From Bacteroidia bacterium (GTDB taxonomy: Bacteria > Bacteroidota > Bacteroidia > CAILMK01 > JBBDIG01): DNA of 51,545 nt. Within the stretch, counting starts at the first letter, position 1. The number at the start of each line of letters is the position of its first letter. The position numbers were made by a program, and so were the translations under genes. This document shows, piece after piece, positions 5,224 to 48,416 of this stretch. The stretch is taken from NCBI GenBank assembly GCA_040880525.1, contig JBBDIG010000028.1:70563-122107 (forward strand), written 5' to 3'. Below the pieces are notes generated by a model that did not search any database, was not told the origin of the DNA, and saw nothing but the letters and a program-made list of their open reading frames with translations.

Positions 5224-5315
5224 GCTTTCACAAATGGACACAAATAAAGAATGTTGTTGTGTTACTTTGATCGTTTTGGCAAAGAAAATTAGTTTGTATT
5301 CTTTTAAATGGTTTC

Positions 5316-5708: not shown

Positions 5709-5710
5709 TA

Positions 5711-5727
5711 ATTAGTGTCAATTTGTG
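5711..5727. repeat. Right inverted repeat of GxxExxY insertion
   Basis: ATTAGTGTCAATTTGTG is the inverted partner of 5207-5223 (16 of 17). A further GTGTATTTGTGG unit at 5741-5752 supplies the GTG start chosen for pseC. Confidence 0.6.
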
Positions 5728-5748
5728 TACTTCAATTCGTGTGTATTT

Positions 5749-8012: not shown

Positions 8013-8043
8013 CATGTTTTCTAATCTCTATAAGTTTTAATTC

Positions 8044-10759: not shown

Positions 10760-10760
10760 A

Positions 10761-12071: not shown

Positions 12072-12073
12072 TC

Positions 12074-13126: not shown

Positions 13127-13611
13127 ATGCAATCAATGGCATGACTGAAAAATTGAATTGCAGGGAAGCAACAATGGCAGATTGCCAGCAAATTTATAAA
13201 TGGAATAGTGACCCTGTGACACGCGCAAATTCATTTAATTCTTCAGTTTTCAGTTTTGAGGATCATAAAAAGTGGTTTGAAGATAAATTAAAAAACGGGG
13301 CAACAAAATTCTTTGTTTTTGCGAATGAGCGGGAACAGGATGTAGGTTTGGTGAGAATGGATAGTGTAGATGATTACTGGTTGATAGGTCTCAATGTTGT
13401 GCCCGATCACCGGGGTAAAGGTTATGCCGCTAACATGATAATAGGGGCCGTTCAAAAAATCAGAGAAAAATCTCCGCTACCGGTTATTGCCCAAATTAAA
13501 GTTGAAAATCAATCCTCAGTTAAAGTATTTGAAAAGGCCGGATTCACTTTGGATAGGGAAATAGTTATTAATAATATTCCAAGTTTACAATATGTCTATG
13601 AAAATAGCTGA
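13123..13611 (+). CDS. pseH: PseH-like GNAT N-acetyltransferase
   Basis: GNAT-family enzyme (162 aa) that probably acetylates the 4-amino group of the PseC product. The acetyl-CoA motif is VVPDHRGKGYAANMII, near residue 92, followed by IKVENQSSVKVFEKAGF, the usual GNAT end. It starts 4 nt inside pseG and overlaps pseI by 20 nt, so it sits tightly between the enzymes acting after it. An internal ATG at 13141 gives a more usual N-terminus (MTEKLNCREAT). Confidence 0.85.
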   Translation: MNAINGMTEKLNCREATMADCQQIYKWNSDPVTRANSFNSSVFSFEDHKKWFEDKLKNGATKFFVFANEREQDVGLVRMDSVDDYWLIGLNVVPDHRGKGYAANMIIGAVQKIREKSPLPVIAQIKVENQSSVKVFEKAGFTLDREIVINNIPSLQYVYENS

Positions 13612-14638
13612 TTTCAAGATTGGGCAAAGAGTTTTAATTATCGCTGAACTTTCAGCAAATCATGGTCAGCAATTAAAGACGGCTGTGGACACTGTGCGCG
13701 CGGTAAAAGCTGCGGGTGCAGATGCAATTAAATTCCAGACCTACAGGGCTGACACGATTACCATTAATTCGGTTAAGGATTACTTTAAAATTAAAGGAGG
13801 GCTATGGGATGGGCGCAATTTATATGATCTCTATGAAGAAGCACATACGCCCTGGGAATGGCATAAAGAGCTTTTTGAAATATCAAAGGAAGAAGGTCTG
13901 ATTTGCTTCTCTTCTCCTTTTGATAAAACTGCTGTTGATTTTCTGGAAGAGCTGAATACAGCCGCGTATAAAATCGCTTCGTTTGAAATTCAGGATATTC
14001 CCCTTATTGCATACGCAGCATCAAAGGGAAAACCCATGATAATGAGTACGGGCATTGCAACTGAGGAGGATATTGAACTGGCCATAAGTACATGTCGTCA
14101 GGCTGGAAATAATGAGATCATTATTCTAAAATGTACCTCTGCTTATCCGGCACCTATTGAATTGGCCAATTTAAAAACAATGGTGGATATGAGGGATCGG
14201 TTTAATGTAGAAGTGGGACTTTCAGATCACACTTTCGGCCATACCGTTCCGGTTGTTGCCACGGCATTAGGGGCAAGGGTAATTGAGAAACACTTCATCC
14301 TTGATAAAACCATTGGAGGGCCGGATGCCGCTTTTTCATTAGATCCAACTGAGTTTAGCGCCCTGGTGGAAGCCGTAAGAAATGCAGAGAAAGCCCTAGG
14401 TGAGGTTACGTATGAAATTCCCGAAAAGGTGGAAAGTAACCGGAAATTCGCCCGCTCGCTTTTTGTGGTAAAAGACATGGAGCGGGGAGAGGTCTTCACT
14501 AGTGAGAACGTGCGGTCCATACGTCCTGGCTATGGCCTGCATCCTAAATATTATGATCAAGTGCTGGGAAAGCAAGCTAAAATTGATCTTAATCGTGGAA
14601 CGCCTCTGCTTAAAAATCATGTGGATGGAATACAATAA
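13592..14638 (+). CDS. pseI: PseI, pseudaminic acid synthase
   Basis: NeuB-family synthase condensing the trideoxy sugar with phosphoenolpyruvate to Pse. The TIM barrel shows IIAELSANHGQQLKTAVDTV at the N-terminus, DAIKFQTYRADTITI, CFSSPFDKTAVDFLEEL, and VGLSDHTFGHTVPVVA with the downstream VIEKHFILDKTIGGPDAAFS; the last ~65 residues form the SAF (antifreeze-like) domain (ARSLFVVKDMERGEVFTSEN). The GGPDAAFS rather than PGPDHRAS signature and the ELSANHG start separate it from the Leg-type paralogue at 19315. Length 348 aa is normal. Confidence 0.93.
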   Translation: MSMKIADFKIGQRVLIIAELSANHGQQLKTAVDTVRAVKAAGADAIKFQTYRADTITINSVKDYFKIKGGLWDGRNLYDLYEEAHTPWEWHKELFEISKEEGLICFSSPFDKTAVDFLEELNTAAYKIASFEIQDIPLIAYAASKGKPMIMSTGIATEEDIELAISTCRQAGNNEIIILKCTSAYPAPIELANLKTMVDMRDRFNVEVGLSDHTFGHTVPVVATALGARVIEKHFILDKTIGGPDAAFSLDPTEFSALVEAVRNAEKALGEVTYEIPEKVESNRKFARSLFVVKDMERGEVFTSENVRSIRPGYGLHPKYYDQVLGKQAKIDLNRGTPLLKNHVDGIQ

Positions 14639-16364: not shown

Positions 16365-17552
16365 ATGAATATTCTAAGCTTAATTAAAAGAAACAGTGGT
16401 TTGCTTGATGAAGATGTTAAGGCTTTTGATAAAGCATTAACTGAAAAAGTAGGCGATACCAATTTCCTCGTTATTGGTGGTGCTGGCTCCATCGGCCAGG
16501 CGGTGGTAAAAGAAATATTCAAGCGAAATCCGCGGAAGCTTCATGTTGTTGACATCAGCGAAAATAACATGGTGGAACTGGTGCGGGATATTCGCAGTTC
16601 ACTGGGCTATATTGACGGGGAGTTCAAAACTTTTGCACTTGATATTGGCTCCTGGCAATACGATGCTTTTTTTAACGCTGATGGCGATTATGATTATATC
16701 CTCAATCTGTCAGCATTAAAGCATGTTCGCAGCGAAAAAGATCCTTTTACGCTGATGCGGATGATTGAGGTGAATATTCTCAATACGGATAAAACCCTGC
16801 AACAGGCCATTGCAGCGGGAACGAAAAAATACTTTTGTGTCTCCACGGATAAGGCGGCCAATCCCGTAAATATGATGGGTGCCTCAAAGCGGATCATGGA
16901 AATGTTCCTGATGAGAAGGAGCGTGGACATTGACATTTCCACCGCACGTTTTGCCAATGTTGCTTTTTCTGATGGATCGCTGCTGCACGGCTTCAACCAG
17001 CGCATCCTGAAACAGCAACCTATTGTGGCCCCAAATGACGTAAAGCGCTATTTCGTTACGCCCCAGGAGTCGGGAGAGCTATGTTTAATGTCCTGCCTGT
17101 TGGGCGAAAACCGGGATATTTTCTTTCCCAAGTTAAGTGAGGCGTTGCATCTCATTACATTCTCAGAGATCGCAAAGCGCTTTCTGAAAGCATCGGGATT
17201 TGAAGCTTATGAATGTACCGATGAGGATGAAGCCCGTGCAATGGTGGCAACCCTGCCTCAGCAGGGCAAATGGCCGTGCCTCTTTACCAAAAGCGATACG
17301 ACCGGGGAAAAGGATTTCGAGGAATTCTACACCGAAAATGAAGTGCTGGACATGGAGCGGTTTGAAAGCATAGGTATCATTAAGAATGCGTTTGATTTTG
17401 ATGGTGAAAAACTCCGGTATTTCGAAGAGCGGATTGACCAGATGAAAAATAAGGGAAGTTGGACGAAGGAGGAGATCGTGGAGCTTTTCCATGTAATGAT
17501 CCCCGGGTTCGGCCATCTGGAAACAGGAAAATACCTGGACGGCAAAATGTAA
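16365..17552 (+). CDS. legB: LegB-like nucleotide-sugar 4,6-dehydratase
   Basis: First dedicated enzyme of the Leg cassette: forms the 4-keto-6-deoxy sugar from UDP- or GDP-GlcNAc. Rossmann GGAGSIGQ is near residue 38, and the active-site stretch is STDKAANPVNMMGASK, with the Asp-Lys pair of the dehydratases and Met in place of the usual Tyr, as in the FlaA1/CapD-type branch. It is longer than PseB (395 versus 355 aa) through N- and C-terminal extensions. The PtmE-like gene at 21544 suggests GDP-linked substrates. The stop overlaps the start of legC by one nucleotide (TAATG). Confidence 0.85.
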   Translation: MNILSLIKRNSGLLDEDVKAFDKALTEKVGDTNFLVIGGAGSIGQAVVKEIFKRNPRKLHVVDISENNMVELVRDIRSSLGYIDGEFKTFALDIGSWQYDAFFNADGDYDYILNLSALKHVRSEKDPFTLMRMIEVNILNTDKTLQQAIAAGTKKYFCVSTDKAANPVNMMGASKRIMEMFLMRRSVDIDISTARFANVAFSDGSLLHGFNQRILKQQPIVAPNDVKRYFVTPQESGELCLMSCLLGENRDIFFPKLSEALHLITFSEIAKRFLKASGFEAYECTDEDEARAMVATLPQQGKWPCLFTKSDTTGEKDFEEFYTENEVLDMERFESIGIIKNAFDFDGEKLRYFEERIDQMKNKGSWTKEEIVELFHVMIPGFGHLETGKYLDGKM

Positions 17553-18703
17553 TGGGAAAGGAATTTAAATCTACCATTGATTTTATAAAGGACCTCTACG
17601 GCAATCCTGCGTTTGTTCCGTTGCATATTCCCCGGTTTTGGGGAAAGGAAAAGGAATATCTCCTGGATACCATTGCGTCCACTTTTGTTTCTTCGGTTGG
17701 CGCTTATGTCAATCGTTTCGAGGAAGAAATGGCTACGCTTACGGGAACAGCAAAGGCTGCTGCTGTAGTTAATGGCACAGCCGCCCTGCAGGTGGCCTTG
17801 CGCATAGCAGGGGTACAACCGGGTGAGGAAGTCATTACCCAGGCACTCACGTTTGTGGCCACCGCCAATGCCATTGCCTATAATTATGCGCAGCCCGTTT
17901 TTGTGGATGTGGATCGGGACACCATGGGGATGTCAGCCACGGCCCTCGAAGATTTTCTTGAAACGTATGGAGAGAAAAGGGATAACGGCACGTTCAACAA
18001 ATCAACCGGGAAGCGCATTGCAGCCTGCCTGCCCATGCACACCTTCGGCTTTATGTGCCGGATTGAGGAAATCGTAAATATATGCAGCCAATGGGATATT
18101 CCTGTGGTGGAAGATGCTGCGGAGGCCCTGGGAAGCACGTATAATGGAAAACCGGCAGGCGGCTTCGGCAGGATGGGAATCTTTAGTTTTAATGGCAATA
18201 AAATTATTACAGCAGGTGGTGGTGGAGCATTGGTTTCCAATGACGCACAATGGGCAGAAAAAGCAAAATACCTAACCACCACAGCGAAAGTCCCTCACAC
18301 ATGGGATTATGTGCATGATGAATTGGGTTACAATTACAGAATGCCCAATATCAACGCGGCTCTGCTTTGTGCCCAACTTGAGCAGTTGGATGCGCTGAAG
18401 GATTCCAAAAGAGCGGTTTACGAGGGGTACACCGGTTTCTTTAATAACTACGATATACGCCTAACGCCCATTCCCGAAGGCACTGGCTGGAATTATTGGT
18501 TGATGAGCGTGGAACTGGAAGACAGAAAACAACGGGATGCATTTTTAGAAACGACAAACGCAAATGGCATAATGACCCGTCCGGTATGGCAATTAATGTA
18601 TCGCCTGCCGATGTATAAGCATTGCCAACGTGATGATGAGAAGAATGCGGAATACCTGGAAGAACGAATTGTAAATATCCCCAGTAGTGCCAGAGAAGAC
18701 TAA
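17552..18703 (+). CDS. legC: LegC-like PLP aminotransferase
   Basis: DegT/DnrJ/EryC1-family aminotransferase making the 4-amino-4,6-dideoxy sugar of the Leg route. It starts PLHIPRFWGKEKEYL and shows VVNGTAALQVALRIAGV, VVEDAAEALGSTYNG and the PLP-lysine motif FSFNGNKIITAGGGGALV. The frame is open from a start at 17459, but the ATG at 17552 overlapping the legB stop is the natural one (383 aa). It is clearly of a different subfamily from pseC and close to the enzyme at 47250, which has the same FNGNKIIT motif. Confidence 0.88.
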   Translation: MGKEFKSTIDFIKDLYGNPAFVPLHIPRFWGKEKEYLLDTIASTFVSSVGAYVNRFEEEMATLTGTAKAAAVVNGTAALQVALRIAGVQPGEEVITQALTFVATANAIAYNYAQPVFVDVDRDTMGMSATALEDFLETYGEKRDNGTFNKSTGKRIAACLPMHTFGFMCRIEEIVNICSQWDIPVVEDAAEALGSTYNGKPAGGFGRMGIFSFNGNKIITAGGGGALVSNDAQWAEKAKYLTTTAKVPHTWDYVHDELGYNYRMPNINAALLCAQLEQLDALKDSKRAVYEGYTGFFNNYDIRLTPIPEGTGWNYWLMSVELEDRKQRDAFLETTNANGIMTRPVWQLMYRLPMYKHCQRDDEKNAEYLEERIVNIPSSARED

Positions 18704-19325
18704 GCAGTGCTGTCTTTTAGGTTATGCGGGACATGGGCTTGTAGTAGCAGAAGCCGCAATGCTGTTAAAAATGAACTTAATTGCTTATGCCGATAAAAGC
18801 GCATTAACGCACAATCCTTATAACCTGAGTTATTGGGGTGACGAGGCGTCAATGGAGTTTAAAGGTTGGGCTGAAGAAGCTGTGTTTATCCTGGGTATTG
18901 GAAATAACCTCATCCGTTCAAAAGTGGGCAACTACATTCGTTCGAAAGGTTTTAGCTGCCTATCACTTATCCATCCGGCAAGCAGCGTCTCTTCTTTTAG
19001 CGAAATTGGAGAAGGCACTTTCGTGGCGCGGAATGCCGCCATTAATCCTTTTTGTAAAATAGGAATGGATGTAATCATAAACACCTCAGCCAGCATTGAC
19101 CATGAATGTACCATTGGTGCAGGATCGCATATTGCGCCTGGAGCCGTGCTGGCGGGAAATGTAACAGTAGGGGAGCAGGCCTTTATTGGCGCCAATGCTG
19201 TGATTAAGCAAGGTGTTAAAATTGAGAATGGCGCTGTGGTAGGGGCTGGATCCGTAGTGATAAAAGATGTAGCCCAAAATAAGTTGGTAATAGGAAATCC
19301 CGCGAAGGAGAGCAATGAGCGATAA
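18687..19325 (+). CDS. NeuD/PglD-type acetyltransferase (LegH role)
   Basis: Left-handed beta-helix acyltransferase with an N-terminal sugar-nucleotide-binding domain (LLGYAGHGLVVAEAA) and hexapeptide repeats from about residue 100 (IGEGTFVARNAAI, IGAGSHIAPGAVL, VGEQAFIGANAVIKQ). The His of SASIDHECTIG corresponds to the catalytic His of PglD. It most likely N-acetylates the 4-amino sugar from LegC. It overlaps legC by 17 nt and legI by 11 nt. The start is GTG. Confidence 0.85.
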   Translation: MPEKTKQCCLLGYAGHGLVVAEAAMLLKMNLIAYADKSALTHNPYNLSYWGDEASMEFKGWAEEAVFILGIGNNLIRSKVGNYIRSKGFSCLSLIHPASSVSSFSEIGEGTFVARNAAINPFCKIGMDVIINTSASIDHECTIGAGSHIAPGAVLAGNVTVGEQAFIGANAVIKQGVKIENGAVVGAGSVVIKDVAQNKLVIGNPAKESNER

Positions 19326-20340
19326 AGTACTAATCATAGCGGAAGCAGGGGTAAACCACAATGGGAATTTAGCTATTGCTAAACAGCTTATTGATGTGGG
19401 GGCTGATGCCGGAGTTGACCTGGTAAAATTCCAAACCTTTAAAGCCGATACCATTGTGAGCAAGCAGGCATTGAAGGCCTCCTACCAAAAGGAAAACACC
19501 GGGGGTGCTGACGCTTCGCAATATGCAATGCTCAAATCACTGGAGTTATCGGAGGCTGATCATACTGAACTTATCGCGTATAGCACGGCAAGGGGCGTAG
19601 GGTTTTTTTCTACAGCCTTTGACACAGCGGGGTTGGATTATCTGCATTCAATAGGCTTTCAACACTTTAAAGTTCCCAGTGGGGAGATTACCAACTATCC
19701 TTATTTAAAAAAACTGGCAGCGTTTGCAAAACCGGTTATCCTGTCTACCGGCATGGCGGGCTTGCAGGAAATAGAGGAAGCACTTAATGTTTTAACGGCA
19801 AATGGATTAACCAGATCAGATATTACGGTGCTGCATTGCAACACGGAATATCCCACCCCAATGGAGGATGTAAATCTTAAAGCCATGAACGCAATAGGAG
19901 AAGCCCTGGGGGTAAAGATTGGATATTCAGATCATACGCTCGGAATTGAAGTGCCGATTGCTGCAGTTGCATTGGGCGCTACAGTCATCGAAAAGCACTT
20001 TACGCTTGACCGCAATTTACCCGGCCCTGATCACAGGGCTTCGCTTGAGCCTGATGAGTTAAAGGAAATGGTCTCGGCCATCAGGAATATAGAAAAGGCC
20101 ATTTCCGGAAGCGGCCTGAAGGAGCCAAGCAAGAGCGAAGGCAAAAACAGGGATATTGTAAGGAAAAGCATTCACCTCAAAACAGATATTAAGGCTGGGG
20201 AAAGTATATCCGAAAAAAATATTATCCCGCTCCGTCCGGGTGATGGCATAAGCCCAATGGAATGGGAAACGGTGATGGGAAAAAAGGTAAATAAAGAAAT
20301 TAAGGCATTTGAAAAACTGAGATGGGAGGACCTGGTTTGA
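19315..20340 (+). CDS. legI: LegI/NeuB-like nonulosonate synthase
   Basis: Condenses a 2,4-diacetamido-trideoxymannose-type sugar with phosphoenolpyruvate. Signatures are IIAEAGVNHNGNLAIAKQLI, VKFQTFKADTIV, FFSTAFDTAGLDYL, KVPSGEITNYPYL, IGYSDHTLGIEVPIAAVA, VIEKHFTLDRNLPGPDH and a C-terminal SAF domain starting near residue 275 (IHLKTDIKAGESI). The sialic/legionaminic-type NHNG and PGPDH features distinguish it from pseI. Length 341 aa is normal. Confidence 0.9.
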   Translation: MSDKVLIIAEAGVNHNGNLAIAKQLIDVGADAGVDLVKFQTFKADTIVSKQALKASYQKENTGGADASQYAMLKSLELSEADHTELIAYSTARGVGFFSTAFDTAGLDYLHSIGFQHFKVPSGEITNYPYLKKLAAFAKPVILSTGMAGLQEIEEALNVLTANGLTRSDITVLHCNTEYPTPMEDVNLKAMNAIGEALGVKIGYSDHTLGIEVPIAAVALGATVIEKHFTLDRNLPGPDHRASLEPDELKEMVSAIRNIEKAISGSGLKEPSKSEGKNRDIVRKSIHLKTDIKAGESISEKNIIPLRPGDGISPMEWETVMGKKVNKEIKAFEKLRWEDLV

Positions 20341-21497
20341 GCAAACGCAAAATATGCGTGGTAACAGGTACCCGTGCAGAGTTCGGATTAATGCAATGGC
20401 TCCTGCATGATATTCGGGAGGATGATGAGCTGGAGTTGCAGGTCATAGCCACCGGGATGCACTTGTCCCCGGAATTCGGCCTGACCTATAAAGCCATCGA
20501 AGAAAGAGGTTTTAAAATTTCAAAGAAAATAGAAGTACTGCTCTCGTCAGATTCATCTGTTGGTATTTCCAAGTCAATGGGGCTAGGGATGATTTCCTTT
20601 GCTGAGGCTTATGATGAACTGAAGCCGGATATTGTCGTGGTGCTGGGCGACCGATTTGAAATCTTTGCGGCCGTAACGGCTGCCATGATCGCCAGAATCC
20701 CGGTGGGGCATATTCATGGTGGCGAAACCACCGAAGGCGTTATTGATGAGTCAATCAGGCACTCCATCACCAAAATGGCGCACCTGCACTTTACCGCCAC
20801 CAAAGCCTATGCAAAAAGGGTAATACAGTTGGGTGAACAACCGGAAAGGGTTTTTCATACCGGCACTCCGGGTTTGGATAATATAGAACGGATGGCCTTG
20901 CTGAGCCGGACAGATTTTGAAAAGTCAATTGACTTTAAGCTGGCTGAAAAAAACATTCTGATCACTTTTCATCCGGTAACGCTGGAAGAAAAGACAGCCG
21001 AAACACAATTCGGGGAATTGCTGGAGGCATTGGCGTTATTTCCTGATGTGCATTTAATATTTACCATGCCCAATGCGGATACTGATGGCAGGATCATCAT
21101 CGGGATGATAAATAGCTTTGTTGCCAGGCAAGGCGACAGGGCCAGGGCATTTACCTCTTTAGGGCAGTTGCGCTATCTGTCTGCGCTAAAGCATGTTGAC
21201 GTGGTGCTGGGCAATTCATCCAGCGGACTTATAGAGGCCCCAAGTTTCAAAGTACCCACCATAAACATAGGCGACAGGCAAAAAGGAAGGATCAAAGCCG
21301 AAACCGTAATAGATTGCGAGCCTGCCACGGAGCGCATTCAAGCTGCCTTGCAGAAGGCATTCAGTAATGAATTCCGGCAGCGCATTAAAGATGTGGAGAA
21401 TCCTTATGGTACCGGTGGCGCTTCCCTTAAAATAAAGGAGATATTAAAATCATTTCCGCTCGATGGTATTTTAAAAAAGCAATTTTACGATTTATGA
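20337..21497 (+). CDS. legG: LegG/NeuC-like hydrolysing UDP-sugar 2-epimerase
   Basis: Hydrolysing 2-epimerase that releases the 2,4-diacetamido-trideoxymannose used by LegI. The protein begins KICVVTGTRAEFGLMQWLL, with GDRFEIFAAVTAAMIARIPVGHIHGGE, a motif block typical of NeuC, and the late VLGNSSSGLIEAP nucleotide-binding segment. An in-frame ATG at 20322 exists, but TTG 20337, overlapping the preceding stop by 4 nt (TTGA), gives the family-like start MSKRKICVV and is preferred (386 aa). Confidence 0.88.
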   Translation: MSKRKICVVTGTRAEFGLMQWLLHDIREDDELELQVIATGMHLSPEFGLTYKAIEERGFKISKKIEVLLSSDSSVGISKSMGLGMISFAEAYDELKPDIVVVLGDRFEIFAAVTAAMIARIPVGHIHGGETTEGVIDESIRHSITKMAHLHFTATKAYAKRVIQLGEQPERVFHTGTPGLDNIERMALLSRTDFEKSIDFKLAEKNILITFHPVTLEEKTAETQFGELLEALALFPDVHLIFTMPNADTDGRIIIGMINSFVARQGDRARAFTSLGQLRYLSALKHVDVVLGNSSSGLIEAPSFKVPTINIGDRQKGRIKAETVIDCEPATERIQAALQKAFSNEFRQRIKDVENPYGTGGASLKIKEILKSFPLDGILKKQFYDL

Positions 21498-21543
21498 TCG
21501 CGTCTAAATGTTCAGCGCCATTCAATCTTGAAAGTAAATCCGT

Positions 21544-22590
21544 GTGAGAAACTATAAAGACCACCTGATACTTGAAGGAACTCCGATTAGAGAGGGCCTG
21601 AAAAAGCTTAATGAGCTGGCCAGGGATGCCATTTTGTTTGTGGTAAATGAGCAACGGCAATTGAAGGGATCACTTACCGATGGTGATGTGAGGCGCGGAT
21701 TAATAAAAGGATTAACTACGGAGAGCAAGGTAGAAGAATTCACACAGGCTAACCCCAGGTTTATTCACAAGGAAGATTATACCCTCGAGGATATAATCAA
21801 ACTTCGGGAGCGTAATCTGAAAGTAGTGCCGGTGCTGAATGGCAACCGTGAAATTGTGAATGTTGTGAATTTCGGGTATTTAAAGTCATACCTTCCGCTG
21901 GATGCCGTAATAATGGCCGGAGGAAAGGGAAAACGCCTGCTACCGCTCACTGAAAAAACACCCAAGCCTTTGTTGAAAATTGGCGATAAGCCCATCATGG
22001 ATTATCAGTTAGATCGCCTTAGCCAATATGGCGTGGACGATTTTTGGTTAAGCCTTAATTATTTAGGGGAGCAGATACAGGAGCACTATGGCAATGGGCA
22101 ATTGCGGGGCATAAACATCGAATATATTTGGGAGGATGCACCAATGGGAACCATTGGTGCCGTGAGTAAGATCAAAGATTTTAAACATGATTGTGTGTTA
22201 ATCACAAATTCTGATTTACTCACCACCATAGATTATGAAGATTTCTTTTTAGAATTTCAAAATCAGGATGCTGACTTTGCTGTTGCAACCATTCCTTATG
22301 CGGTGGATGTGCCTTATGCAGTAATGGAAACCACAAACAATCATGTTATTTCTTTTAAAGAGAAACCAACCTACACATACTATTCAAACGCAGGAATTTA
22401 TCTTGTAAAGCGAAAAAGCCTGGAATTAATACCACCTGAAACTTTTTATAATAGCACTGATTTAATGCAAGCATTAATTCAGCAGGGTAAAAGGGTAATT
22501 TCATATCCATTGCGGCAGTATTGGCTGGACATTGGGAAGCCTGAAGATTTTAAGAAAGCTCAGGAGGATATAAAACATCTACAGTTTTGA
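21544..22590 (+). CDS. PtmE-like sugar-1-phosphate nucleotidyltransferase with CBS domains
   Basis: Two-domain enzyme (348 aa): an N-terminal CBS pair (about residues 10-115; ILFVVNEQRQLKGSLTDGDVRRG, VPVLNGNREIVNVV) and a C-terminal nucleotidyltransferase (VIMAGGKGKRLLPLTEKTPKPLLKIGDKPIMDY from residue 121). In Campylobacter, PtmE of this form makes GDP-glucosamine at the start of the legionaminate pathway, so a similar feeder role is likely. The CBS pair may sense a nucleotide. The start is GTG. Confidence 0.82.
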   Translation: MRNYKDHLILEGTPIREGLKKLNELARDAILFVVNEQRQLKGSLTDGDVRRGLIKGLTTESKVEEFTQANPRFIHKEDYTLEDIIKLRERNLKVVPVLNGNREIVNVVNFGYLKSYLPLDAVIMAGGKGKRLLPLTEKTPKPLLKIGDKPIMDYQLDRLSQYGVDDFWLSLNYLGEQIQEHYGNGQLRGINIEYIWEDAPMGTIGAVSKIKDFKHDCVLITNSDLLTTIDYEDFFLEFQNQDADFAVATIPYAVDVPYAVMETTNNHVISFKEKPTYTYYSNAGIYLVKRKSLELIPPETFYNSTDLMQALIQQGKRVISYPLRQYWLDIGKPEDFKKAQEDIKHLQF

Positions 22591-23282
22591 ATGATCTGGT
22601 AGTGATTCCCGCACGGGGGGGAAGCAAGGGAATACCGGGAAAAAACATCAAGATGCTGAATGGGAAGCCCTTGATCCATTACAGTATTGAAGTGGCCAGG
22701 GAAGTATTTGCCGATGAACAAATATTGGTGTCTACTGATAGCCCGGCCATAAGGGATGTGGCGGAACAAACCGGCCTGGACGTGCCTTTTTTGCGACCGT
22801 CTGCTCTGGCTACAGACAGCGCGGGTAGCTATGAAGTTTTGCTGCATGCCCTGGCGCGAGCCGAAGAACAAGGCATGGATCCCTCGCGACTTATCCTGCT
22901 GCAGCCGACCTCGCCCTTCCGGCAGGCCCGGCATGTCAAGGAAGCAATGGACCTCTTTTCAACTGATTGTGAAATGGTGGTGTCCGTAAAAGTGGCTGAT
23001 GGCAATCCCTATTACAACCTGCGCGAGGAGGATGATTTCGGCTGGCTACAAAAATTTAAAGAAGCTGACAATACACGCAGACAGGATATTCCCGAGGTGT
23101 ATCAATTCAATGGAGCGGTGTACGTGATCAATATTGCCGCGCTCCGAAACAGAACGATGATAAGATTTGATAGAGTACGCAAATATCTGATGGACCCATA
23201 TTACTCCCTTGATCTGGACACCCCCCTAGATTGGCATATTGCCGAGTGCCTTATGAAAAGTGGGTTTATAGATGCAGGGTAA
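22587..23282 (+). CDS. legF: LegF/NeuA-like CMP-nonulosonate synthetase
   Basis: Activates the nonulosonic acid with CTP to the CMP-sugar used by transferases. The N-terminal VIPARGGSKGIPGKNIKMLNG is the CTP-binding motif, followed by ILVSTDSPAIRDVAE, LLQPTSPFR and FNGAVYVINIAAL, all as in NeuA. Length 231 aa is normal for the single-domain form. The TTG start overlaps the preceding stop (TTGA). It closes the Leg cassette. Confidence 0.9.
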   Translation: MNDLVVIPARGGSKGIPGKNIKMLNGKPLIHYSIEVAREVFADEQILVSTDSPAIRDVAEQTGLDVPFLRPSALATDSAGSYEVLLHALARAEEQGMDPSRLILLQPTSPFRQARHVKEAMDLFSTDCEMVVSVKVADGNPYYNLREEDDFGWLQKFKEADNTRRQDIPEVYQFNGAVYVINIAALRNRTMIRFDRVRKYLMDPYYSLDLDTPLDWHIAECLMKSGFIDAG

Positions 23283-31574: not shown

Positions 31575-32699
31575 GTGCTGAGAAAAATCAAACAACAGCT
31601 AATTAACCTCCCCGGCTGGCGCACTAGCCGGAAGATCATTGTTTTGGAAAGCGATGATTGGGGGGCCATCCGCAGCAAATCACTCGCTGCAATTGATGCT
31701 TTACGCAAAAAAGGTGTGGCAGTTGATAAGTGCCATTATATGCTCAATGACGCCTTGGCGAGTACCCAGGATCTGACATTGCTTTTTGATTTGTTGCTTC
31801 ATTATAAAGATAAGAATGGCAGGCCACCGGTGATAACGGCCAACAGCCTCGTGGCCAATCCGGATTTTGAAAAAATACGGGAAGGCGGCTTTCAGGAATA
31901 TTTTTTTGAGCCGGTGCAGGCCACCCTTCAAAGCTATCCTGAGCATTCACAAGCGTTTGACCTTTGGAAAAAAGGAATGGCAGACAAGATATTCCATCCT
32001 CAATCCCACGGAAGGGAGCATTTAAACATTTCCCGCTGGATGCGGGACTTACGGAATGGTGAGGCAGAAGCGCATCTCGCCTTCGACCTAGGTATGTTCG
32101 GAATTAGTGCGCACATTTCCAAAATGAAAAGGGGCAGCTACCTGGCGGCATTTGATGGCAGTCAAGATGAAATCATCATCAATCGGGGGGAGGTGGTTAA
32201 GGAAGGCCTGACGATGTTCAGGGATTTTTTCGGCTATCCTTCCCGGTCATTTATAGCGCCCAACTACCTATGGGATGATGAGATTGAAATAAGTGCTGCA
32301 AGCCAGGGTGTTCAATATTTCCAGGGTGCAATGACCCAGCGGTTACCATCGAGCCATGAAGAAAAGGTGAAAGTGAAGCGACATTACCAGGGCCAGAAAA
32401 ACAGCCAAGGATCCCGTTACCTTGTGCGCAATGTGAAGTTCGAACCATCTTCAAACCCTGCCAGGGACTGGGTGGATATTGCCATGGCAGGCATAGCAAG
32501 CGCCTTTAAATGGCACAAACCGGCCATAGTAGAGACACACCGGGTAAATTTTATCGGGTTCATTAACCCCACCAACCGGGAAACCAATTTGCGCTTGTTT
32601 GATTCCCTGCTTATCAGAATTCTCAGCACCTGGCCAGATGTGGAATTCATGACCTCTGACCAACTTGGCGATTTAATGAACGGGAACAAGGAACGTTGA
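31575..32699 (+). CDS. Polysaccharide deacetylase-like protein, copy 1
   Basis: A 374-aa NodB-fold candidate. The N-terminal KIIVLESDDWGAIRSKS gives an Asp-Asp pair and HPQSHGREHLNISRWM near residue 139 provides His ligands; SFIAPNYLWDDE and VETHRVNFIG with a late His complete the pattern. A paralogue lies at 41014 (VFSVDDYGNVR, FHGREHFNLRVF, SSHRVNFCG). Probably deacetylates a sugar residue or acts on a related amide. It overlaps the CapA-like gene by 4 nt; start GTG. Confidence 0.65.
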   Translation: MLRKIKQQLINLPGWRTSRKIIVLESDDWGAIRSKSLAAIDALRKKGVAVDKCHYMLNDALASTQDLTLLFDLLLHYKDKNGRPPVITANSLVANPDFEKIREGGFQEYFFEPVQATLQSYPEHSQAFDLWKKGMADKIFHPQSHGREHLNISRWMRDLRNGEAEAHLAFDLGMFGISAHISKMKRGSYLAAFDGSQDEIIINRGEVVKEGLTMFRDFFGYPSRSFIAPNYLWDDEIEISAASQGVQYFQGAMTQRLPSSHEEKVKVKRHYQGQKNSQGSRYLVRNVKFEPSSNPARDWVDIAMAGIASAFKWHKPAIVETHRVNFIGFINPTNRETNLRLFDSLLIRILSTWPDVEFMTSDQLGDLMNGNKER

Positions 32700-40679: not shown

Positions 40680-41036
40680 GTTGCTACCCGGTATATGGCA
40701 CGCACCAAAGCATCTCTGGATGTTGAGGAACCTGGTCAAACCGGATTAACAATGCGAACCATTTAGGTTTTAGGGGCAAAGAGAAAACTTATTACCACAA
40801 ATCAAAAAAGCAAAGAATATGATTTTTACGATTCGGATAATGTTATGGTGATTGATCGTCAGGTACCAGTAATTGACCCGGATTTTATTAAATCACCTTT
40901 TGTTGATATTCCTTCAGGTATATATTATAATTATTCAATATCCGGCTGGATAAATGATGTTTTTAGCGATTTACAGGCTGGTTATTTTCATGCGGTTTTA
41001 ATGTCGTCAATTCATGGTTGCGATGAAAATAATTGA
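40680..41036 (+). pseudogene. Remnant of an Eps11J/RfaS-like protein C-terminus
   Basis: The frame encodes LDVEEPGQTGLTMRTI, an in-frame TAG (40764-40766), then VLGAKRKLITTNQKSKEYDF and PVIDPDFIKSPFVDIPSGIY ... YSISGWINDVF. The pattern QTGLTMRT, GAxxKLITTN and a YSIxxW end is familiar from the C-terminus of capsule/LPS proteins of the Eps11J/RfaS type. The N-terminal part is missing. It abuts the GT4 remnant, so a deletion joined the two. The next gene starts inside its last codons. Confidence 0.6.
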
Positions 41037-42156
41037 TCATTTCAAGAACATTCCTGGCTGGCGTACCAAACGAAAGTTGGTGGTTTTTTCGGTGGATGAC
41101 TACGGTAATGTGCGGGTTGATTCAAGTGAATCAAGGAAAGCCTTGGATGAAGCCGGATACCCGGCCCTAAAGCGTTTTGACCGTTATGACGCCCTGGAGA
41201 CAAGGGAAGACCTGGAGGCACTTTTTGAGGTGCTGGATACGGTGAAGGACCAACATGGGAAGCCAGCCGTTTTTACCCCTTATGCCCTGACCCGTAACAT
41301 TGATTTTGAGAAGATGGCATCGGAGGATGACGGACAGTATTATTCAGAACTGGTGAGCCATACATTCGAAAGAAAAGCGGAACAAGATCCAATCCCATAT
41401 CAAGGCACCTGGAAACTCTGGCAAAAAGGCATGGAGGAGGGATATCTTTCACCGGAATTTCATGGACGGGAGCATTTCAATCTCAGGGTTTTTCTTCAGA
41501 AGTTAAAGGAAAAGGATGCGCAGCTTATGGCATCCCTGAAGCATCGCTCCAATATTGCTCTCCAAACCAAAGGGGATGGAAATTTCAAGTACAGTGCAGC
41601 ATTTGGCTTTAAGAACAAGGAGGATCTCGCAGGTATGCCGGAAATTATAAAAGAAGGGATGCTTGATTTCCGGGAAGTCTATGGACGGCAGGCCACTGTT
41701 TTTACCCCATCGGCAAGTCAGTTTCCGCCCTCGCTTGTGAAGCACCTCCCCGAATATGGCATAGAGGCACTTGACAAACCTTTTTTTACAAAGCGTTATC
41801 AGGAATCCGGAAAGTATGCAAGGGAATTCAACTTCCTTGGGTACGATAAAAAAAACGGCCTCACCATTCTTGTTCGTAACGTGATCTTTGAACCAATAGA
41901 CGACAATACAGATCGTTGGATTAACCTGGCGTTGCGCCAGATAGAAGCTGCCTTCCGCTGGGGCAAACCAGCCAACATCAGTTCTCACCGCGTTAACTTT
42001 TGTGGACATATTGATAAGAAGAATCGTGAGAAAGGGCTGGATGCATTGAAAGTGTTGCTTGGAAAGATTGTGGAACGCTGGCCGGATGCAGAGTTTATTT
42101 CGGCCCGTGACCTTGCCAAAATAATAGGAAAGTCGGAAAAGGTTGAGCGTCTATAG
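41014..42156 (+). CDS. Polysaccharide deacetylase-like protein, copy 2
   Basis: Paralogue of 31575 (380 aa). KRKLVVFSVDDYGNVRVDS supplies the Asp pair and SPEFHGREHFNLRVFLQ the His pair; TPSASQFPPSL and SSHRVNFCGHIDKKNR match the later motifs. Start may be ATG 41014 or ATG 41023 (MKIIDHFKNIPGW), the latter being closer to the NLPGWRT start of copy 1. It overlaps the following sugar transferase gene by 14 nt. Confidence 0.65.
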   Translation: MVAMKIIDHFKNIPGWRTKRKLVVFSVDDYGNVRVDSSESRKALDEAGYPALKRFDRYDALETREDLEALFEVLDTVKDQHGKPAVFTPYALTRNIDFEKMASEDDGQYYSELVSHTFERKAEQDPIPYQGTWKLWQKGMEEGYLSPEFHGREHFNLRVFLQKLKEKDAQLMASLKHRSNIALQTKGDGNFKYSAAFGFKNKEDLAGMPEIIKEGMLDFREVYGRQATVFTPSASQFPPSLVKHLPEYGIEALDKPFFTKRYQESGKYAREFNFLGYDKKNGLTILVRNVIFEPIDDNTDRWINLALRQIEAAFRWGKPANISSHRVNFCGHIDKKNREKGLDALKVLLGKIVERWPDAEFISARDLAKIIGKSEKVERL

Positions 42157-42754
42157 AGATTACCTTAAGCGTCCCTTTGATTTTGTTGCCAGCCTTTGTG
42201 CATTGCTCCTGCTGTCTCCGTTCATTTTATTGCTGACCCTCCTTCTGGCTTTGGCTAACCAGGGTTCTCCTTTTTTCTTCCAGGAACGGCCCGGCTGGCG
42301 CGAGCAAAGGATTAGAATAGTGAAGTTCAAATCAATGAACGACAAAAAGGATGCTGCAGGAAATTTATTGCCCGATAATCAGCGATTAACCAAAATGGGC
42401 CACTTTATAAGAAAGACTTCTTTGGACGAACTGCCCCAACTTTTTAATGTATTAATTGGTGATATGAGCCTGGTAGGCCCGCGCCCGCTGTTGTTTAAAT
42501 ACATACCCCTTTATTCTCTGGAGCAAAGACGAAGACACGCGGTTCGGCCCGGTATTACCGGATTGGCGCAGGTAAGCGGCAGGAATTCGATAAGCTGGCA
42601 GAAAAAATTTGAGCATGATGTCCGGTATATTGATAATATTTCTTTTCTATTAGATATGAAAATTATTTTTAGAACAATAAAAAAAGTGATTCTGAAGGAA
42701 GGAATAAACCAATCGGCTGAACGCCCAATGCAACCTTTTAAGGGAAATAACTGA
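42143..42754 (+). CDS. PglC/WcaJ-type initiating phosphoglycosyltransferase
   Basis: Monotopic phosphoglycosyltransferase (203 aa, PglC-like length) that moves a sugar-phosphate to undecaprenyl phosphate to begin the repeat unit. One N-terminal membrane hairpin (FDFVASLCALLLLSPFILLL) precedes the catalytic VKFKSMND, KMGHFIRKTSLDELPQLFNVL, GDMSLVGPRPLL and RPGITGLAQVSGRN signatures. With the acetyltransferase at 43756 and aminotransferase at 47250 it resembles a PglC/D/E bacillosamine set. Start TTG. Confidence 0.9.
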   Translation: MSVYRDYLKRPFDFVASLCALLLLSPFILLLTLLLALANQGSPFFFQERPGWREQRIRIVKFKSMNDKKDAAGNLLPDNQRLTKMGHFIRKTSLDELPQLFNVLIGDMSLVGPRPLLFKYIPLYSLEQRRRHAVRPGITGLAQVSGRNSISWQKKFEHDVRYIDNISFLLDMKIIFRTIKKVILKEGINQSAERPMQPFKGNN

Positions 42755-43759
42755 ATGTTCAACAAGATTATATATTTTGGTTATTACCTAAAGAGTACCA
42801 ATTGGAAAGAATTCCGTGGATTTGTGAATCATGTGCAGAAAACAACCGGCAGATCCAGGCCTTCTATTCTACAAGATGTGATGACCTCATCATTTAAGTA
42901 TAAAATAGCATTTATTGATTATTTTTATTTCCGGTTTTATGAAAAAGATGCTGAAGCCCGTAAGAGTTATGCAGGCACAGGATACATGTATGAATATCAA
43001 TTAAAAATGAATCCCAGAAAATACCGGGATGTGCTGAATGATAAATGGTTATTCCTGAAGCATTTTTCGAAATATATTCACCATGCATATTTTGAGTTAC
43101 AGGAATTGAAGAAAGATCCGGATAAAATAAAAAGAATATTAGAGCAACCGCAAGGTAAGTTCGTAATTAAAGCGCGGGACGGCCAGTGTGGCCGTGAAGT
43201 ACGGGTATTTGGTTCAAAAGATAAAACCCCGGCTGATGTACTGCAACTGATGGAACTGCATGGCCTTGACCTGCTGGAGGAGTATCTGGTGCAACATCAG
43301 GACTTGCGCAGGTTGTCAGACAGCGGCTTGAATACTGTGCGGGTTTTTACTCAACTTGATGAATCTGGCAATGTACATATCCTGGGTGTGCGCCTACGCA
43401 TTACTGTAAATTCTCATGTGGACAACCTGGCGGCCGGTAACCTGGCGGCACCTGTTGACGATGAAACAGGAATAGTGACAGGCCCCGCAGTCTATTCCAA
43501 CATTACCAAGAATACCGAAACACATCATCCCATTACAGGAACAGAGATCGTTGGTTTTCAGATACCCTGCTGGCAGGCGCTGAAGAAAATGGTGACGGAG
43601 GCCGCCACGGATATGGTGGAGAACCGTTCCATCGGTTGGGATGTGGTCGTTACGGATTCAGGTCCGGAGTTGCTGGAAGGAAACCACAACTGGTGTAAGC
43701 TTTTGTGGCAACTACCGGTGCAGCGTGGATTGAAAAAGGAAATTGAGGGTTATTTATGA
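42755..43759 (+). CDS. Sugar-transfer-associated ATP-grasp protein
   Basis: ATP-grasp family commonly linked to polysaccharide loci (334 aa). KFVIKARDGQCGREVRVF carries the ATP-binding Lys, LLEEYLVQHQDLRRLSDSGLNTVRVFT and a final WDVVVTDSGPELLEGNHNW metal-site region identify the fold. Function unknown; probably ligates an acid to a sugar amine. It follows the sugar transferase gene immediately and overlaps the next by 4 nt. Confidence 0.8.
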   Translation: MFNKIIYFGYYLKSTNWKEFRGFVNHVQKTTGRSRPSILQDVMTSSFKYKIAFIDYFYFRFYEKDAEARKSYAGTGYMYEYQLKMNPRKYRDVLNDKWLFLKHFSKYIHHAYFELQELKKDPDKIKRILEQPQGKFVIKARDGQCGREVRVFGSKDKTPADVLQLMELHGLDLLEEYLVQHQDLRRLSDSGLNTVRVFTQLDESGNVHILGVRLRITVNSHVDNLAAGNLAAPVDDETGIVTGPAVYSNITKNTETHHPITGTEIVGFQIPCWQALKKMVTEAATDMVENRSIGWDVVVTDSGPELLEGNHNWCKLLWQLPVQRGLKKEIEGYL

Positions 43760-44400
43760 CGGAAAAGGATTTGATCATTATAGGAGCAGGATATATTGCG
43801 GGATTCCTGGTCAATAATCAGGAATTGTTTAATGAAAAGTATAATATAATAGGTTTTTTGGATGACGATCCGAAAAAAACCGGGAAGAAGTATTGGGATA
43901 TTCCGGTTTTAGGTTCGATTGATGATCTTGCGAATTACAACGGTGTTTCGGTGGTTATTGGAATTGCAGCACCAAAAATTAAAGTACAGATTTTAAAAAG
44001 AATTAATGTTGCAGATTATCATTTTCCCAATTTTGTATCGCGGAATGTTTGGATTTCCAATGACGTTCAAATAGGAAAAGGAAATATTATTTACCCCGGA
44101 GTAAGCATCAATCACGGTAGCAGGATAGCTGATTTCTGCGTGATCAATATGAACTGTGCTCTGGGACACGATGCAAAATTGGGCGATTATTGTGCGCTTT
44201 CTCCTGGTGTGAACCTGGGCGGGGTCACGGTGATGGGGAAAGGCGTTTTTATGGGAATCGGAGCCACCACCAATCATTTTCTTACTATAGGCGATTTTGC
44301 CATCATTGGCGGGCAGGCGATGATTATAGAGAATATTCCTGAAGGTGTTACTGTGGTAGGTGTACCGGGAAAAATTGTTTTAAGCAAAAAGAGTAGTTAA
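43756..44400 (+). CDS. PglD/NeuD-type acetyltransferase
   Basis: Hexapeptide-repeat acyltransferase (214 aa) with an N-terminal sugar-binding IIIGAGYIAGFLVNN and repeats IGKGNIIYPGVSI, IADFCVINMNCALGHDAKLGDYCALSPGVNLGG, MGKGVFMGIGATTN. The His in NCALGHD is the likely catalytic base. Would acetylate the 4-amino group produced by the aminotransferase at 47250, completing a diacetamido sugar, or act on a nonulosonate. Overlaps the next gene by 1 nt. Confidence 0.82.
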   Translation: MTEKDLIIIGAGYIAGFLVNNQELFNEKYNIIGFLDDDPKKTGKKYWDIPVLGSIDDLANYNGVSVVIGIAAPKIKVQILKRINVADYHFPNFVSRNVWISNDVQIGKGNIIYPGVSINHGSRIADFCVINMNCALGHDAKLGDYCALSPGVNLGGVTVMGKGVFMGIGATTNHFLTIGDFAIIGGQAMIIENIPEGVTVVGVPGKIVLSKKSS

Positions 44401-45938
44401 TGAAAATTTCTTCAATAGGCCATGCTGGCTTGAAAGTACAAACAAAAGATGCACTTATTTTAATTGATCCGTGGCTCTCGCCCAGTGGAAATTTCCAGGG
44501 TTCTTGGTTCCAGTTTCCTGATAACGCACATGTGTTAGAGGATGATGAGCTATATCATCCGACAGCAATTGTTATTTCTCATGAACATCTTGATCATTGT
44601 GATCCCTGGTTCCTGAGCAAGGTAGATCCAGGTGTTCCGGTAATTGTCCCTAAATACCCATCTCCTGTATTAAAGCAAAAGATCTGGCAGGGAGGAGAGC
44701 GACCCATCGTGGAAGTTCCGCAATGGGAAACCTACGAAATTGTACCCGGAACCACCGTGTTCTTCGTATCAGAACCACCCATGAATCATGATTCTGCCAT
44801 CATCATACAGTCAGAAGGGCACACCCTCCTCAATATGAATGATGCACGCCTATTCCCAATGCAACTGAGAGATATAAAGCAAAAGGTTGGAGGCGTTATT
44901 AATCTGTTCGCTTTTCAGGGTGCAGGCGCATCCTGGTTTCCGATGGTGTACAATTTTGATGAAGAGAAAAAAGATCAGTTAAGAAAACAAAAAAGGTCGG
45001 CTAAATTGTCCTATTGTTTCCGGTGCATGAAAATCGTGGAGCCGGTTATGGGATTACCATTTGCTGGGCCTCCTGCCTTCCTTGATCCCGTTTTATTTCA
45101 GTACAATAAAGAAATGGAAGGAGGTATTTTTCCGGACCAGTTTGAAGTGGCTTCCTACCTCAGGAAAAAAGGGGTTGAAAACATTACTGTCCTGCTTCCC
45201 GGTGATACATGGTCTACGGTGGGCAAAGAGAAAACGGAAGATGCTTTTTGGTTCAAACAGGATCTGCAGGATAGGTGGGCTTACCTGAGGGCTTACCAAT
45301 CGTCCAGGGAAAGTGAGATCAGGAAAATATATGACGATCATCCTGAGCCTGAAAGTTCACTCTGGAAACCGTTCAAAGAATACTTTGAGTGGCTGCTTGG
45401 TCTGAATTCATACTTTAACGAGAAAATAGACATGCGCGTTGGGTTTGAAATTGAGGGTTCGGGGGGTGGAAATTGGTACGTAGACTTCAGAAAGGATCGG
45501 CAAGAAGTAGGGCAGGGAATTGAGGACTGCGGATATATATATTCTTTTGATTCACGATGGTTGCCGCCCATATTGAGAAAAGAGGTGGCCTGGGAGGATT
45601 TCTTCCTGTCGCTCAGGTTTCGGGCAAGACGCAATCCTGACCGGTACAATGACCACTTGTTGGGGCTGCTGAAGTTTGCTGATGAAGAGGCGTTGCGCGA
45701 AGTGCAGACATTCGAAACCCAACCAAAGTCCGATGAACGGATAACGGTGCATGTGGATGGCAATACCTATTCGGTATCACGATATTGTCCACATGCAGGG
45801 AATGATCTTTTAACCACAGGTGAAGTTTTACCAGGGGGTATTTTACGTTGCCTCGCGCATCACTATGATTTTGATCTCAATACGGGCAATTGTATTACAA
45901 GTGATTGTGATAAGCTGCAGGTTGAAAAATTAAAATAG
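44400..45938 (+). CDS. MBL/Rieske protein resembling CMP-Neu5Ac hydroxylase
   Basis: A 512-aa protein with an N-terminal metallo-beta-lactamase domain (SHEHLDHCDPWF; His61, His63, Asp65, His66) and a C-terminal Rieske [2Fe-2S] domain: Cys463-x-His465 and Cys484-x2-His487 (CPHAGNDLL ... RCLAHH). The middle segment GAGASWFPMVYNFDEEKKDQ, then PFAGPPAF, and WEDFFLSLRFRARRNPDRYND resembles vertebrate CMAH, which hydroxylates CMP-Neu5Ac, but there the Rieske domain is N-terminal. In a locus making two nonulosonates, a hydroxylase for a CMP-nonulosonate or its N-acyl group is the natural hypothesis. The start overlaps the previous stop by 1 nt. Electron donors are not seen nearby. Confidence 0.72.
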   Translation: MKISSIGHAGLKVQTKDALILIDPWLSPSGNFQGSWFQFPDNAHVLEDDELYHPTAIVISHEHLDHCDPWFLSKVDPGVPVIVPKYPSPVLKQKIWQGGERPIVEVPQWETYEIVPGTTVFFVSEPPMNHDSAIIIQSEGHTLLNMNDARLFPMQLRDIKQKVGGVINLFAFQGAGASWFPMVYNFDEEKKDQLRKQKRSAKLSYCFRCMKIVEPVMGLPFAGPPAFLDPVLFQYNKEMEGGIFPDQFEVASYLRKKGVENITVLLPGDTWSTVGKEKTEDAFWFKQDLQDRWAYLRAYQSSRESEIRKIYDDHPEPESSLWKPFKEYFEWLLGLNSYFNEKIDMRVGFEIEGSGGGNWYVDFRKDRQEVGQGIEDCGYIYSFDSRWLPPILRKEVAWEDFFLSLRFRARRNPDRYNDHLLGLLKFADEEALREVQTFETQPKSDERITVHVDGNTYSVSRYCPHAGNDLLTTGEVLPGGILRCLAHHYDFDLNTGNCITSDCDKLQVEKLK

Positions 45939-46783: not shown

Positions 46784-47249
46784 AGCTCTACAAACCCCCT
46801 CTGGGGGCGAAGGGGGCTTCTTTGGTCGCGAATGGAGCCACTCTCAATCAATATAACAAACCCTTTCCAAAGCCTGCGCCTACAAAACCCCCTCTGGGTG
46901 CGAAGGGGGTTTCTTTGGGGCCGAAGGAGGCCATTTCTACCCCAGCCCAACGAAACGACAAAACCCCCTCTGGGGGCGAAGGGGGCCATTTTGGTCGCGA
47001 ATAGAGCCACTCTCAATCAATATAACAAACCCTTCCAAAGCCTACTCTCCAATTGTCATTGCGAGCTTTCTCAATAAATTGCTCAATAGCGTAGGGTTTA
47101 AACCCTACGCTATTGAGCCCGTGGTTCGTCTGCGCTCACCATGACCACTTCCTTTCGTTGTCATTTTCCGTTTCAGTGTTTGCGATGCCAAAAATTATTA
47201 CTGCCCATGACAGTATTCTGCGGGAAACTTTCCCATTAAAAATCAAAAC
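46784..47249. repeat. Intergenic repeat tract
   Basis: No gene is supported in this 466-bp gap; short open frames inside it are repeat-encoded. It carries two near-identical direct copies of an ~83-bp unit (46792-46875 and 46961-47043: CCCCCTCTGGGGGCGAAGGGGG, then GGTCGCGAAT, then CTCTCAATCAATATAACAAA), a shortened middle copy near 46883-46915, and the long palindrome at 47081-47118. No TAnnTTTG promoter for the aminotransferase gene was seen. Confidence 0.7.
47081..47118. repeat. Perfect 38-bp palindrome
   Basis: Two 19-bp arms without a spacer, centred at 47099/47100: the left arm is GCTCAATAGCGTAGGGTTT and the right its exact reverse complement. As RNA it forms a long hairpin. No U-tract follows, so it is not a typical intrinsic terminator. 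Confidence 0.85.
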
Positions 47250-48416
47250 ATGAAAGATAAAATTTGGCTCTCTTCACCCCACATTGGTGAGGCAGAGAAG
47301 GAATTCGTAACCGAGGCATTTGAGACCAATTGGATTGCACCCTTGGGGCCGCATGTCAATGGCTTTGAAAAAGACCTGGAAACCTATAATCAGGTAGGTT
47401 TTGCTGCGGCACTATCATCAGGAACTGCTGCGCTGCACCTGGCTTTGATATTATGTGACGTAAAGCCGGGGGATGTGGTCCTATGCCAGAGCTTCACGTT
47501 CTGCGGGTCGGCCAATCCGATACTGTATACCGGGGCCACTCCGGTGTTTATTGACAGCGAGCCAGGCTCCTGGAACATGGATCCGGTGCAGCTTGAAAAT
47601 GCCATAGTGAAAATTAATAACGGTGACCTAAAGGGGGTTGCTGCCAACGCCAGAATCAGGGCCATTATTCCTGTCAATCTTTATGGAATGCCGGCCAGGT
47701 TGAACGAGATCATCGAAATTGGAAACAAGTATAATATTCCTGTAATTGAAGATGCCGCTGAATCGCTGGGTTCAACCTACCAGGGAAAAAAAACCGGATC
47801 GTTTGGTGATTTTGGAATTTACTCTTTTAATGGCAATAAAATAATTACGACAAGTGGCGGTGGGGCATTGGTTTCAGCGGATGAGGCACTAATAAAAAAG
47901 TCAAGGTTTCTGGCCACCCAGGCACGGGATGAAGCGCCCCATTACCAACACTCTGAAGTTGGCTATAACTACAGGCTGAGCAATGTACTGGCAGGAATTG
48001 GTCGCGGACAGATGCAGGTATTGGACGCACGTATTGCTAAAAGGCGTGAAAATTTTAGCCGTTACAAAAGCTATTTTAATAAGTGGAACGACAGCGGTTT
48101 TAATATTCAATTTCAGGAGGAAGCCGAGGGCAGTTTCAGTAATCGCTGGCTTACCTGCATTCTCATTGAGCCAAAGGAGAACAAAGGCATGACGCGCGAT
48201 GAAGTGAGGCTGACGCTGGAAAAGGAAAATGTTGAGGCCCGTCCGCTTTGGAAACCGATGCACATGCAGCCATTGTTTCAGGCTTATCCTTTCTTCGGCA
48301 GTGGCGTTGCCGAGCACCTTTTCGATATTGGTCTTTGCCTGCCAAGCGGCTCAAATTTAAGTGAGGATGATTTCCAGCGGATTTTTGAGGTTTTGGACAA
48401 GTTAGTTGAGCGATAG
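47250..48416 (+). CDS. PglE/EpsN-like PLP aminotransferase
   Basis: DegT-family aminotransferase (388 aa) that makes a 4-amino-4,6-dideoxy sugar: IWLSSPHIGEAEKEFV at the start, LSSGTAALHLALILCDV, EDAAESLGSTYQGKKTG and the PLP lysine in YSFNGNKIITTSGGGALV. The pattern matches PglE/EpsN enzymes feeding UDP-bacillosamine. No matching PglF dehydratase is nearby; LegB or PseB products could supply substrate, or the dehydratase lies outside the window. Confidence 0.85.
   Translation: MKDKIWLSSPHIGEAEKEFVTEAFETNWIAPLGPHVNGFEKDLETYNQVGFAAALSSGTAALHLALILCDVKPGDVVLCQSFTFCGSANPILYTGATPVFIDSEPGSWNMDPVQLENAIVKINNGDLKGVAANARIRAIIPVNLYGMPARLNEIIEIGNKYNIPVIEDAAESLGSTYQGKKTGSFGDFGIYSFNGNKIITTSGGGALVSADEALIKKSRFLATQARDEAPHYQHSEVGYNYRLSNVLAGIGRGQMQVLDARIAKRRENFSRYKSYFNKWNDSGFNIQFQEEAEGSFSNRWLTCILIEPKENKGMTRDEVRLTLEKENVEARPLWKPMHMQPLFQAYPFFGSGVAEHLFDIGLCLPSGSNLSEDDFQRIFEVLDKLVER

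Follow-up and report, generated by a model that had tools for sequence, protein, structure and literature searches.

The window, a stretch of 51,545 nucleotides of contig JBBDIG010000028.1 from a Bacteroidia bacterium, carries in a surface-glycan region one gene that joins a metallo-beta-lactamase (MBL) domain and a Rieske domain in a single protein. This raises the question of which reaction such an enzyme performs there, and on which sugar. The original prediction took it for a bacterial relative of CMP-N-acetylneuraminate hydroxylase (CMAH) whose Rieske domain had moved to the C-terminus and which acts on a CMP-nonulosonate. We suggest that the protein is best read, from its sequence, as a surface-polysaccharide branch of the NamH-type hydroxylases, distinct from NamH itself. 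The gene and its parts are as follows.

44400..45938, + strand: gene of the putative NamH-like MBL-SCP2-Rieske oxygenase (512 aa, ATG start; full-length colinear homologues)
44457..44894, + strand: MBL domain, residues 20-165 (Pfam Lactamase_B_2, PF12706, E 2e-8)
44580..44597, + strand: HxHxDH metal-binding motif, residues 61-66, read directly as HEHLDH
45366..45710, + strand: SCP2-like domain of the Rv3818/NamH type, residues 323-437 (SCP2_Rv3818, PF25451, 29.6 bits, cut-off 28.2, E 9e-7)
45732..45905, + strand: Rieske [2Fe-2S] domain, residues 445-502 (PF00355, 29.3 bits, cut-off 20.3, E 8e-7)

Matches of all three domains were counted above the curated Pfam cut-offs; no NCBIfam model reaches its cut-off for this protein. 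The predicted HxHxDH MBL site and C-terminal Rieske site are thus confirmed in position and by domain. The Rieske ligands are C463 and H465 (CPH) and C484 and H487 (CLAH), and this CxH...CxxH pattern, together with PF00355 above its cut-off, identifies a Rieske protein. Across 44 aligned family members neither the four ligands nor the HxHxDH residues vary. As judged from sequence, the combination of MBL and Rieske domains in this gene is not due to chance. The CMAH-like middle motifs that had been predicted are real; in the collections searched, which include no vertebrate CMAH, their match is the middle domain of NamH (Rv3818).

In vertebrate CMAH the Rieske domain is N-terminal (PMC8227644), hence the order is reversed relative to our protein, as had been stated. 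However, the C-terminal position is not a novel rearrangement: it has been published for NamH (PMC10050696), is universal among the 44 aligned bacterial members, and is found in 30/30 loci inspected from a survey of the Kribbella class. The reversal therefore lies between CMAH and NamH and was already known, and the window protein is on the NamH side of it. The same two functional domains occur in CMAH of animals, which we compared with our protein through published descriptions and not by sequence, and the superfamily is shared via the published homology of CMAH and NamH, a review describing CMAH as distantly homologous to the genes for UDP-N-glycolylmuramate synthesis (PMC6481270). Unlike CMAH, which has the Rieske domain first, the MBL domain last and a CMP-sugar as substrate, the window protein starts with MBL (20-165) and ends with Rieske (445-502).

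NamH, the UDP-N-acetylmuramate hydroxylase of Mycobacteriales (Rv3818 family), has the same succession of MBL, SCP2-like middle and Rieske domains, and its metal and Rieske ligands are common to both proteins. NamH of Nocardia, Rhodococcus and Tsukamurella is colinear with the window protein end to end at 30-31% identity. In plasmid records tblastn gives colinear matches over residues 1-511 in Nocardia, Rhodococcus, Tsukamurella and Microbacterium, at 29-30% identity and with E down to 4e-48. The closest relatives come from 18 genomes of Kribbella and Intrasporangiaceae, at 39-41% identity; direct comparison with Kribbella and a Nostocoides MAG gives 40-42%. Across the Kribbella class the protein is present in 43/297 genomes, a few of these hits being short and covering nothing but the MBL part. 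A maximum-likelihood tree of 36 proteins sets the window, Kribbella and Nostocoides proteins (P0002/P0003) apart from 31 NamH-side sequences with support 100/100, and the window protein is outside the NamH clade; long branches are present in this tree, and the exact neighbours of the window branch are unsure. The setting differs as well. Genes for a HAD hydrolase, a lysophospholipid acyltransferase and serS lie near the Rhodococcus and Tsukamurella copies, and we take the neighbourhood of Rv3818/namH to be the same (acyltransferase/HAD genes with serS), whereas the window branch is found in a surface-polysaccharide context. The architecture is ordinary, while the branch and its setting are unusual.

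We consider the protein likely to be an oxygenase of the MBL + Rieske type, within the NamH/CMAH superfamily, rather than a hydrolase. Searched against the PDB, a profile of seven family sequences finds for the MBL part a non-heme di-iron monooxygenase (8a90, 3e-10) and CmlA (7e-7) ahead of the hydrolase 3rpc (4e-6); the single sequence gives 3rpc as its best match. An AlphaFold2 model built from three sequences is of moderate confidence (pLDDT 71, pTM 0.68), which suffices for a hint of the fold but is too low for the distance between Rieske cluster and metal site; Foldseek with this model ranks CmlA second, behind an isothiocyanate hydrolase. When the metal ligands of CmlA are compared with the window sequence, the alignment of the third-ligand loop is ambiguous. 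By profile, the closest solved structures to the MBL part of the family are CmlA and 8a90, two MBL-fold di-iron monooxygenases whose substrates are not sugars, but they have no Rieske domain and their companion domains are different. It is the profile preference and the invariant Rieske ligands taken together that make the oxygenase the better reading.

The hydroxylase gene closes a tight run of five genes, with gaps of -14, 0, -4 and -1 bases, whose other members, together with one aminotransferase gene further downstream, are listed below.

41014..42156, + strand: protein without a Pfam match, first gene of the run, overlapping the transferase gene by 14 bases
42143..42754, + strand: PglC-like phosphosugar transferase (PF02397; nearest solved structure a di-N-acetylbacillosamine (diNAcBac)-1-phosphate transferase, E 1e-67, full length)
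42755..43759, + strand: sugar-transfer-associated ATP-grasp protein (PF14397, E 3e-45), overlapping the next gene by 4 bases
43756..44400, + strand: NeuD/PglD-family sugar acetyltransferase (TIGR03570, 169 bits, cut-off 160.8)
47250..48416, + strand: PglE/LegC-type aminotransferase (DegT family; nearest solved structures 1o61 and 4ztc, E about 1e-91)

The transferase matches WbaP at 6e-34, against 1e-67 for the diNAcBac-1-phosphate transferase. The TAA stop of the acetyltransferase shares one base with the ATG of the hydroxylase; its nearest solved structures are VioB and perosamine N-acetyltransferase (PerB) first, then PglB and PglD. The aminotransferase matches TIGR04181 below the cut-off of that model, and 1o61 and 4ztc are Campylobacter PglE. 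A membrane dehydratase of 638 aa, nearest to WlaL/PglF (E 1e-87), is encoded outside the window at 126707-128623 of the contig, about 8 kb beyond the PglE-like gene. Homologues of PglF, PglE, PglD and PglC are thus present in one locus, and the neighbours of the hydroxylase match the Campylobacter Pgl pathway for diNAcBac. These genes, to go by their homology, are a set for UDP-diNAcBac or a close relative. The Campylobacter pathway is not known to have a hydroxylase; unlike there, one is attached to the cassette here.

For the relatives, about 20 kb around 16 further branch members and the two first loci were compared with the window and Kribbella genes. In 18/18 actinobacterial loci a Bac_transf sugar-1-phosphate transferase gene adjoins the hydroxylase gene within a Wzx/Wzy polysaccharide locus, followed by a 358-aa protein and a flippase, and then, on all contigs that extend far enough, by a polymerase, an APH-like protein and a glycosyltransferase. 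The PglD-, PglE- and PglF-like proteins of the cassette have no match in any of these 18 loci, so the common element is only the UDP-sugar-type transferase and not diNAcBac. Going by gene content, the sole partner kept between the actinobacterial loci and the window is an enzyme that uses a UDP-sugar.

The best overall explanation, which we put forward tentatively, is that this surface-glycan branch of the NamH/CMAH family converts the N-acetyl group of a UDP-sugar to N-glycolyl, with UDP-diNAcBac as the most likely substrate. The enzyme would be a cytosolic oxygenase of the NamH/CMAH kind, in which an outside electron donor reduces the C-terminal Rieske cluster. The cluster would pass electrons to the di-metal, probably di-iron, site of the MBL domain. 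There O2 would be activated and one hydroxyl placed on the N-acetyl methyl, giving the N-glycolyl group. The substrate would be a UDP-activated N-acetylated sugar of the enzyme's own operon, most likely UDP-di-N-acetylbacillosamine or a near relative. The hydroxylation would follow the step of the overlapping NeuD/PglD-type acetyltransferase and precede that of the PglC-like transferase, which would then load the sugar on undecaprenyl phosphate.

What the analysis establishes is the domains and ligands, the colinearity with NamH, the separate branch, the layout of the operon and the conserved link to sugar-1-phosphate transferases. We infer the oxygenase activity and the order of steps, as well as the target and the sugar, with the chemistry and the substrate taken from NamH, CMAH and the operon. 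By analogy to these two enzymes, N-acetyl hydroxylation is probably the reaction. For a UDP-sugar rather than a CMP-sugar as the substrate we see even chances, and diNAcBac specifically is a possible choice of which we are less confident.

An MBL/Rieske oxygenase might also have another target, namely a ring carbon, a different N-acyl chain or a sugar amine to be oxidized, and we give this a small but real chance. Related MBL di-iron oxygenases, CmlA among them, hydroxylate quite different substrates, and the neighbouring ATP-grasp ligase could attach another acyl group. Moreover, in the third metal-ligand loop of the MBL domain the window branch (11 sequences) has E125, M128 and H130, where the NamH side (31 sequences) has L or M, then A/N/T/S, then G; D131 and D148 are common to both. 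Since the loop differs from that of NamH, the reaction itself could differ. Against this stand the N-acetyl hydroxylation carried out by NamH and CMAH, the two known members with both MBL and Rieske domains, and the NamH-type middle domain of our protein.

The reading that the original prediction preferred, a CMP-nonulosonate hydroxylase, seems improbable to us. From CMP-Leg or CMP-Pse it would make legionaminic or pseudaminic acid with an N-glycolyl group, a bacterial equivalent of Neu5Gc. Both nonulosonate pathways are indeed in the window and look complete, with PseB/PseC/PseI and LegC/NeuB/NeuC-type genes above NCBIfam cut-offs, and sialic-acid O-acetyltransferases also belong to the NeuD family. 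CMAH does the same chemistry on a CMP-sugar and is distantly homologous to NamH (PMC6481270). However, the Pse and Leg genes (4149-14638 and 16365-23282) lie at least 21 kb upstream in the same long surface-glycan region, the Leg genes about 21 kb from a hydroxylase gene that sits inside the tight Pgl-like run. NamH, the closest characterised enzyme, takes a UDP-sugar. The window's NeuB, NeuC and CMP-transferases have no match within about 9 kb in 18/18 homologous loci. The CMP-nonulosonate substrate is thus left unsupported, while an N-glycolyl product stays plausible.

Homologues mostly lacking nonulosonate genes had been named as a sign against the CMP-nonulosonate substrate, and this is what is seen at the locus level (18/18) but not at the genome level, where NeuB occurs elsewhere in 17/18 branch carriers, never linked to the hydroxylase. 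In Kribbella, where teichulosonic acids are reported (PMC6113628), the branch is present in 10/38 genomes and NeuB in 38/38, with or without the hydroxylase gene. In Intrasporangiaceae NeuB is commoner with the gene (7/8 genomes) than without it (56/142; Fisher p 0.01); this enrichment leans towards nonulosonates and is confounded by kinship, the carriers being close kin. We therefore do not take the co-occurrence of NeuB to prove a nonulosonate substrate.

That the protein is simply NamH, hydroxylating UDP-MurNAc to yield N-glycolylated host peptidoglycan, is very unlikely. The identical domain order and the 30-31% identity end to end would suit it, but the gene lies in a surface-glycan operon, the protein falls outside the NamH clade with full support, and the MBL loop is different. 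Besides, muramic acid of Kribbellaceae, with the branch in 10/38 genomes, is described as N-acetylated (PMC6113628), so the branch is not simply NamH. Least likely of all is a UlaG-type metal hydrolase with a Rieske domain that has no catalytic role, for which the 3rpc and isothiocyanate hydrolase matches speak, as does H130, whose position apparently corresponds to that of the third metal ligand in MBL hydrolases, and against which stand the four Rieske ligands invariant in 44 members and the profile preference for di-iron monooxygenases.

If the surface-glycan NamH/CMAH branch indeed acts on a UDP-sugar (diNAcBac type) or a CMP-nonulosonate, it would be a third natural source of N-glycolyl groups besides N-glycolylmuramate and Neu5Gc, a proposal that we regard as neither favoured nor disfavoured. 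That one branch of an enzyme family is fixed beside capsule/exopolysaccharide genes in unrelated bacteria suggests such a third class. It would point carbohydrate chemists to named organisms and a named gene in which to look for N-glycolyl sugars, and would offer a new enzyme with which to make them. The open-access papers searched, a set that takes in few subscription journals, contain no description of a NamH-like enzyme in a polysaccharide locus and no biochemistry of this branch.

Surveys were run with proteins as queries because PF25451, used by itself, failed to recover even the gene in the window. Nearly 500 sampled genomes of the window's phylum contain no other MBL-Rieske fusion, nor do 11 other genomes of the organism's order, and viral and phage collections hold no homologue of the hydroxylase. 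The relatives in the phylum are MBL proteins of 430-560 aa without a Rieske domain, in loci that do not resemble that of the window. Such Rieske-free relatives (L003, L010, L045 and others) occur in this phylum and in haloarchaea, and in several of them the family profile matches across the middle region as well. It seems that the Rieske domain was an addition, made at one end of the protein in CMAH and at the other in NamH.

Two more distant MBL-Rieske homologues have neighbours of their own. One (L085 in G644, 8730-13315) lies beside two genes resembling 2-oxoacid:ferredoxin oxidoreductase subunits, a pair that is possibly the electron source. The other (L086 in G643, 7785-10424) adjoins an apparent UDP-GlcNAc 2-epimerase gene, which is another link to UDP-HexNAc.

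Several further features belong to the glycan region itself. The proteins encoded at 31575-32699 and 41014-42156 resemble each other (..NIPGWRTKRKLVV..DDYG..) and match no Pfam family at E 1e-3; the gene of each heads a glycan gene run. Just past the window (L049:5268-6912), adjacent genes for a Gfo/Idh/MocA oxidoreductase and a hexapeptide acetyltransferase resemble a WlbA/WlbB pair, which would serve a 2,3-diacetamido sugar. In the interval that separates the DUF218 gene from the PglE-like aminotransferase gene, a 79-base repeat occurs three times at 46792-47039, the copies being 63-100% alike. The PseC-type aminotransferase gene (5725-7059) contains in-frame 7- and 14-base repeats at 6450-6617; the low-complexity insert that they encode is about 40 residues long (..ANRQPPAANRQPPAANSQ..).
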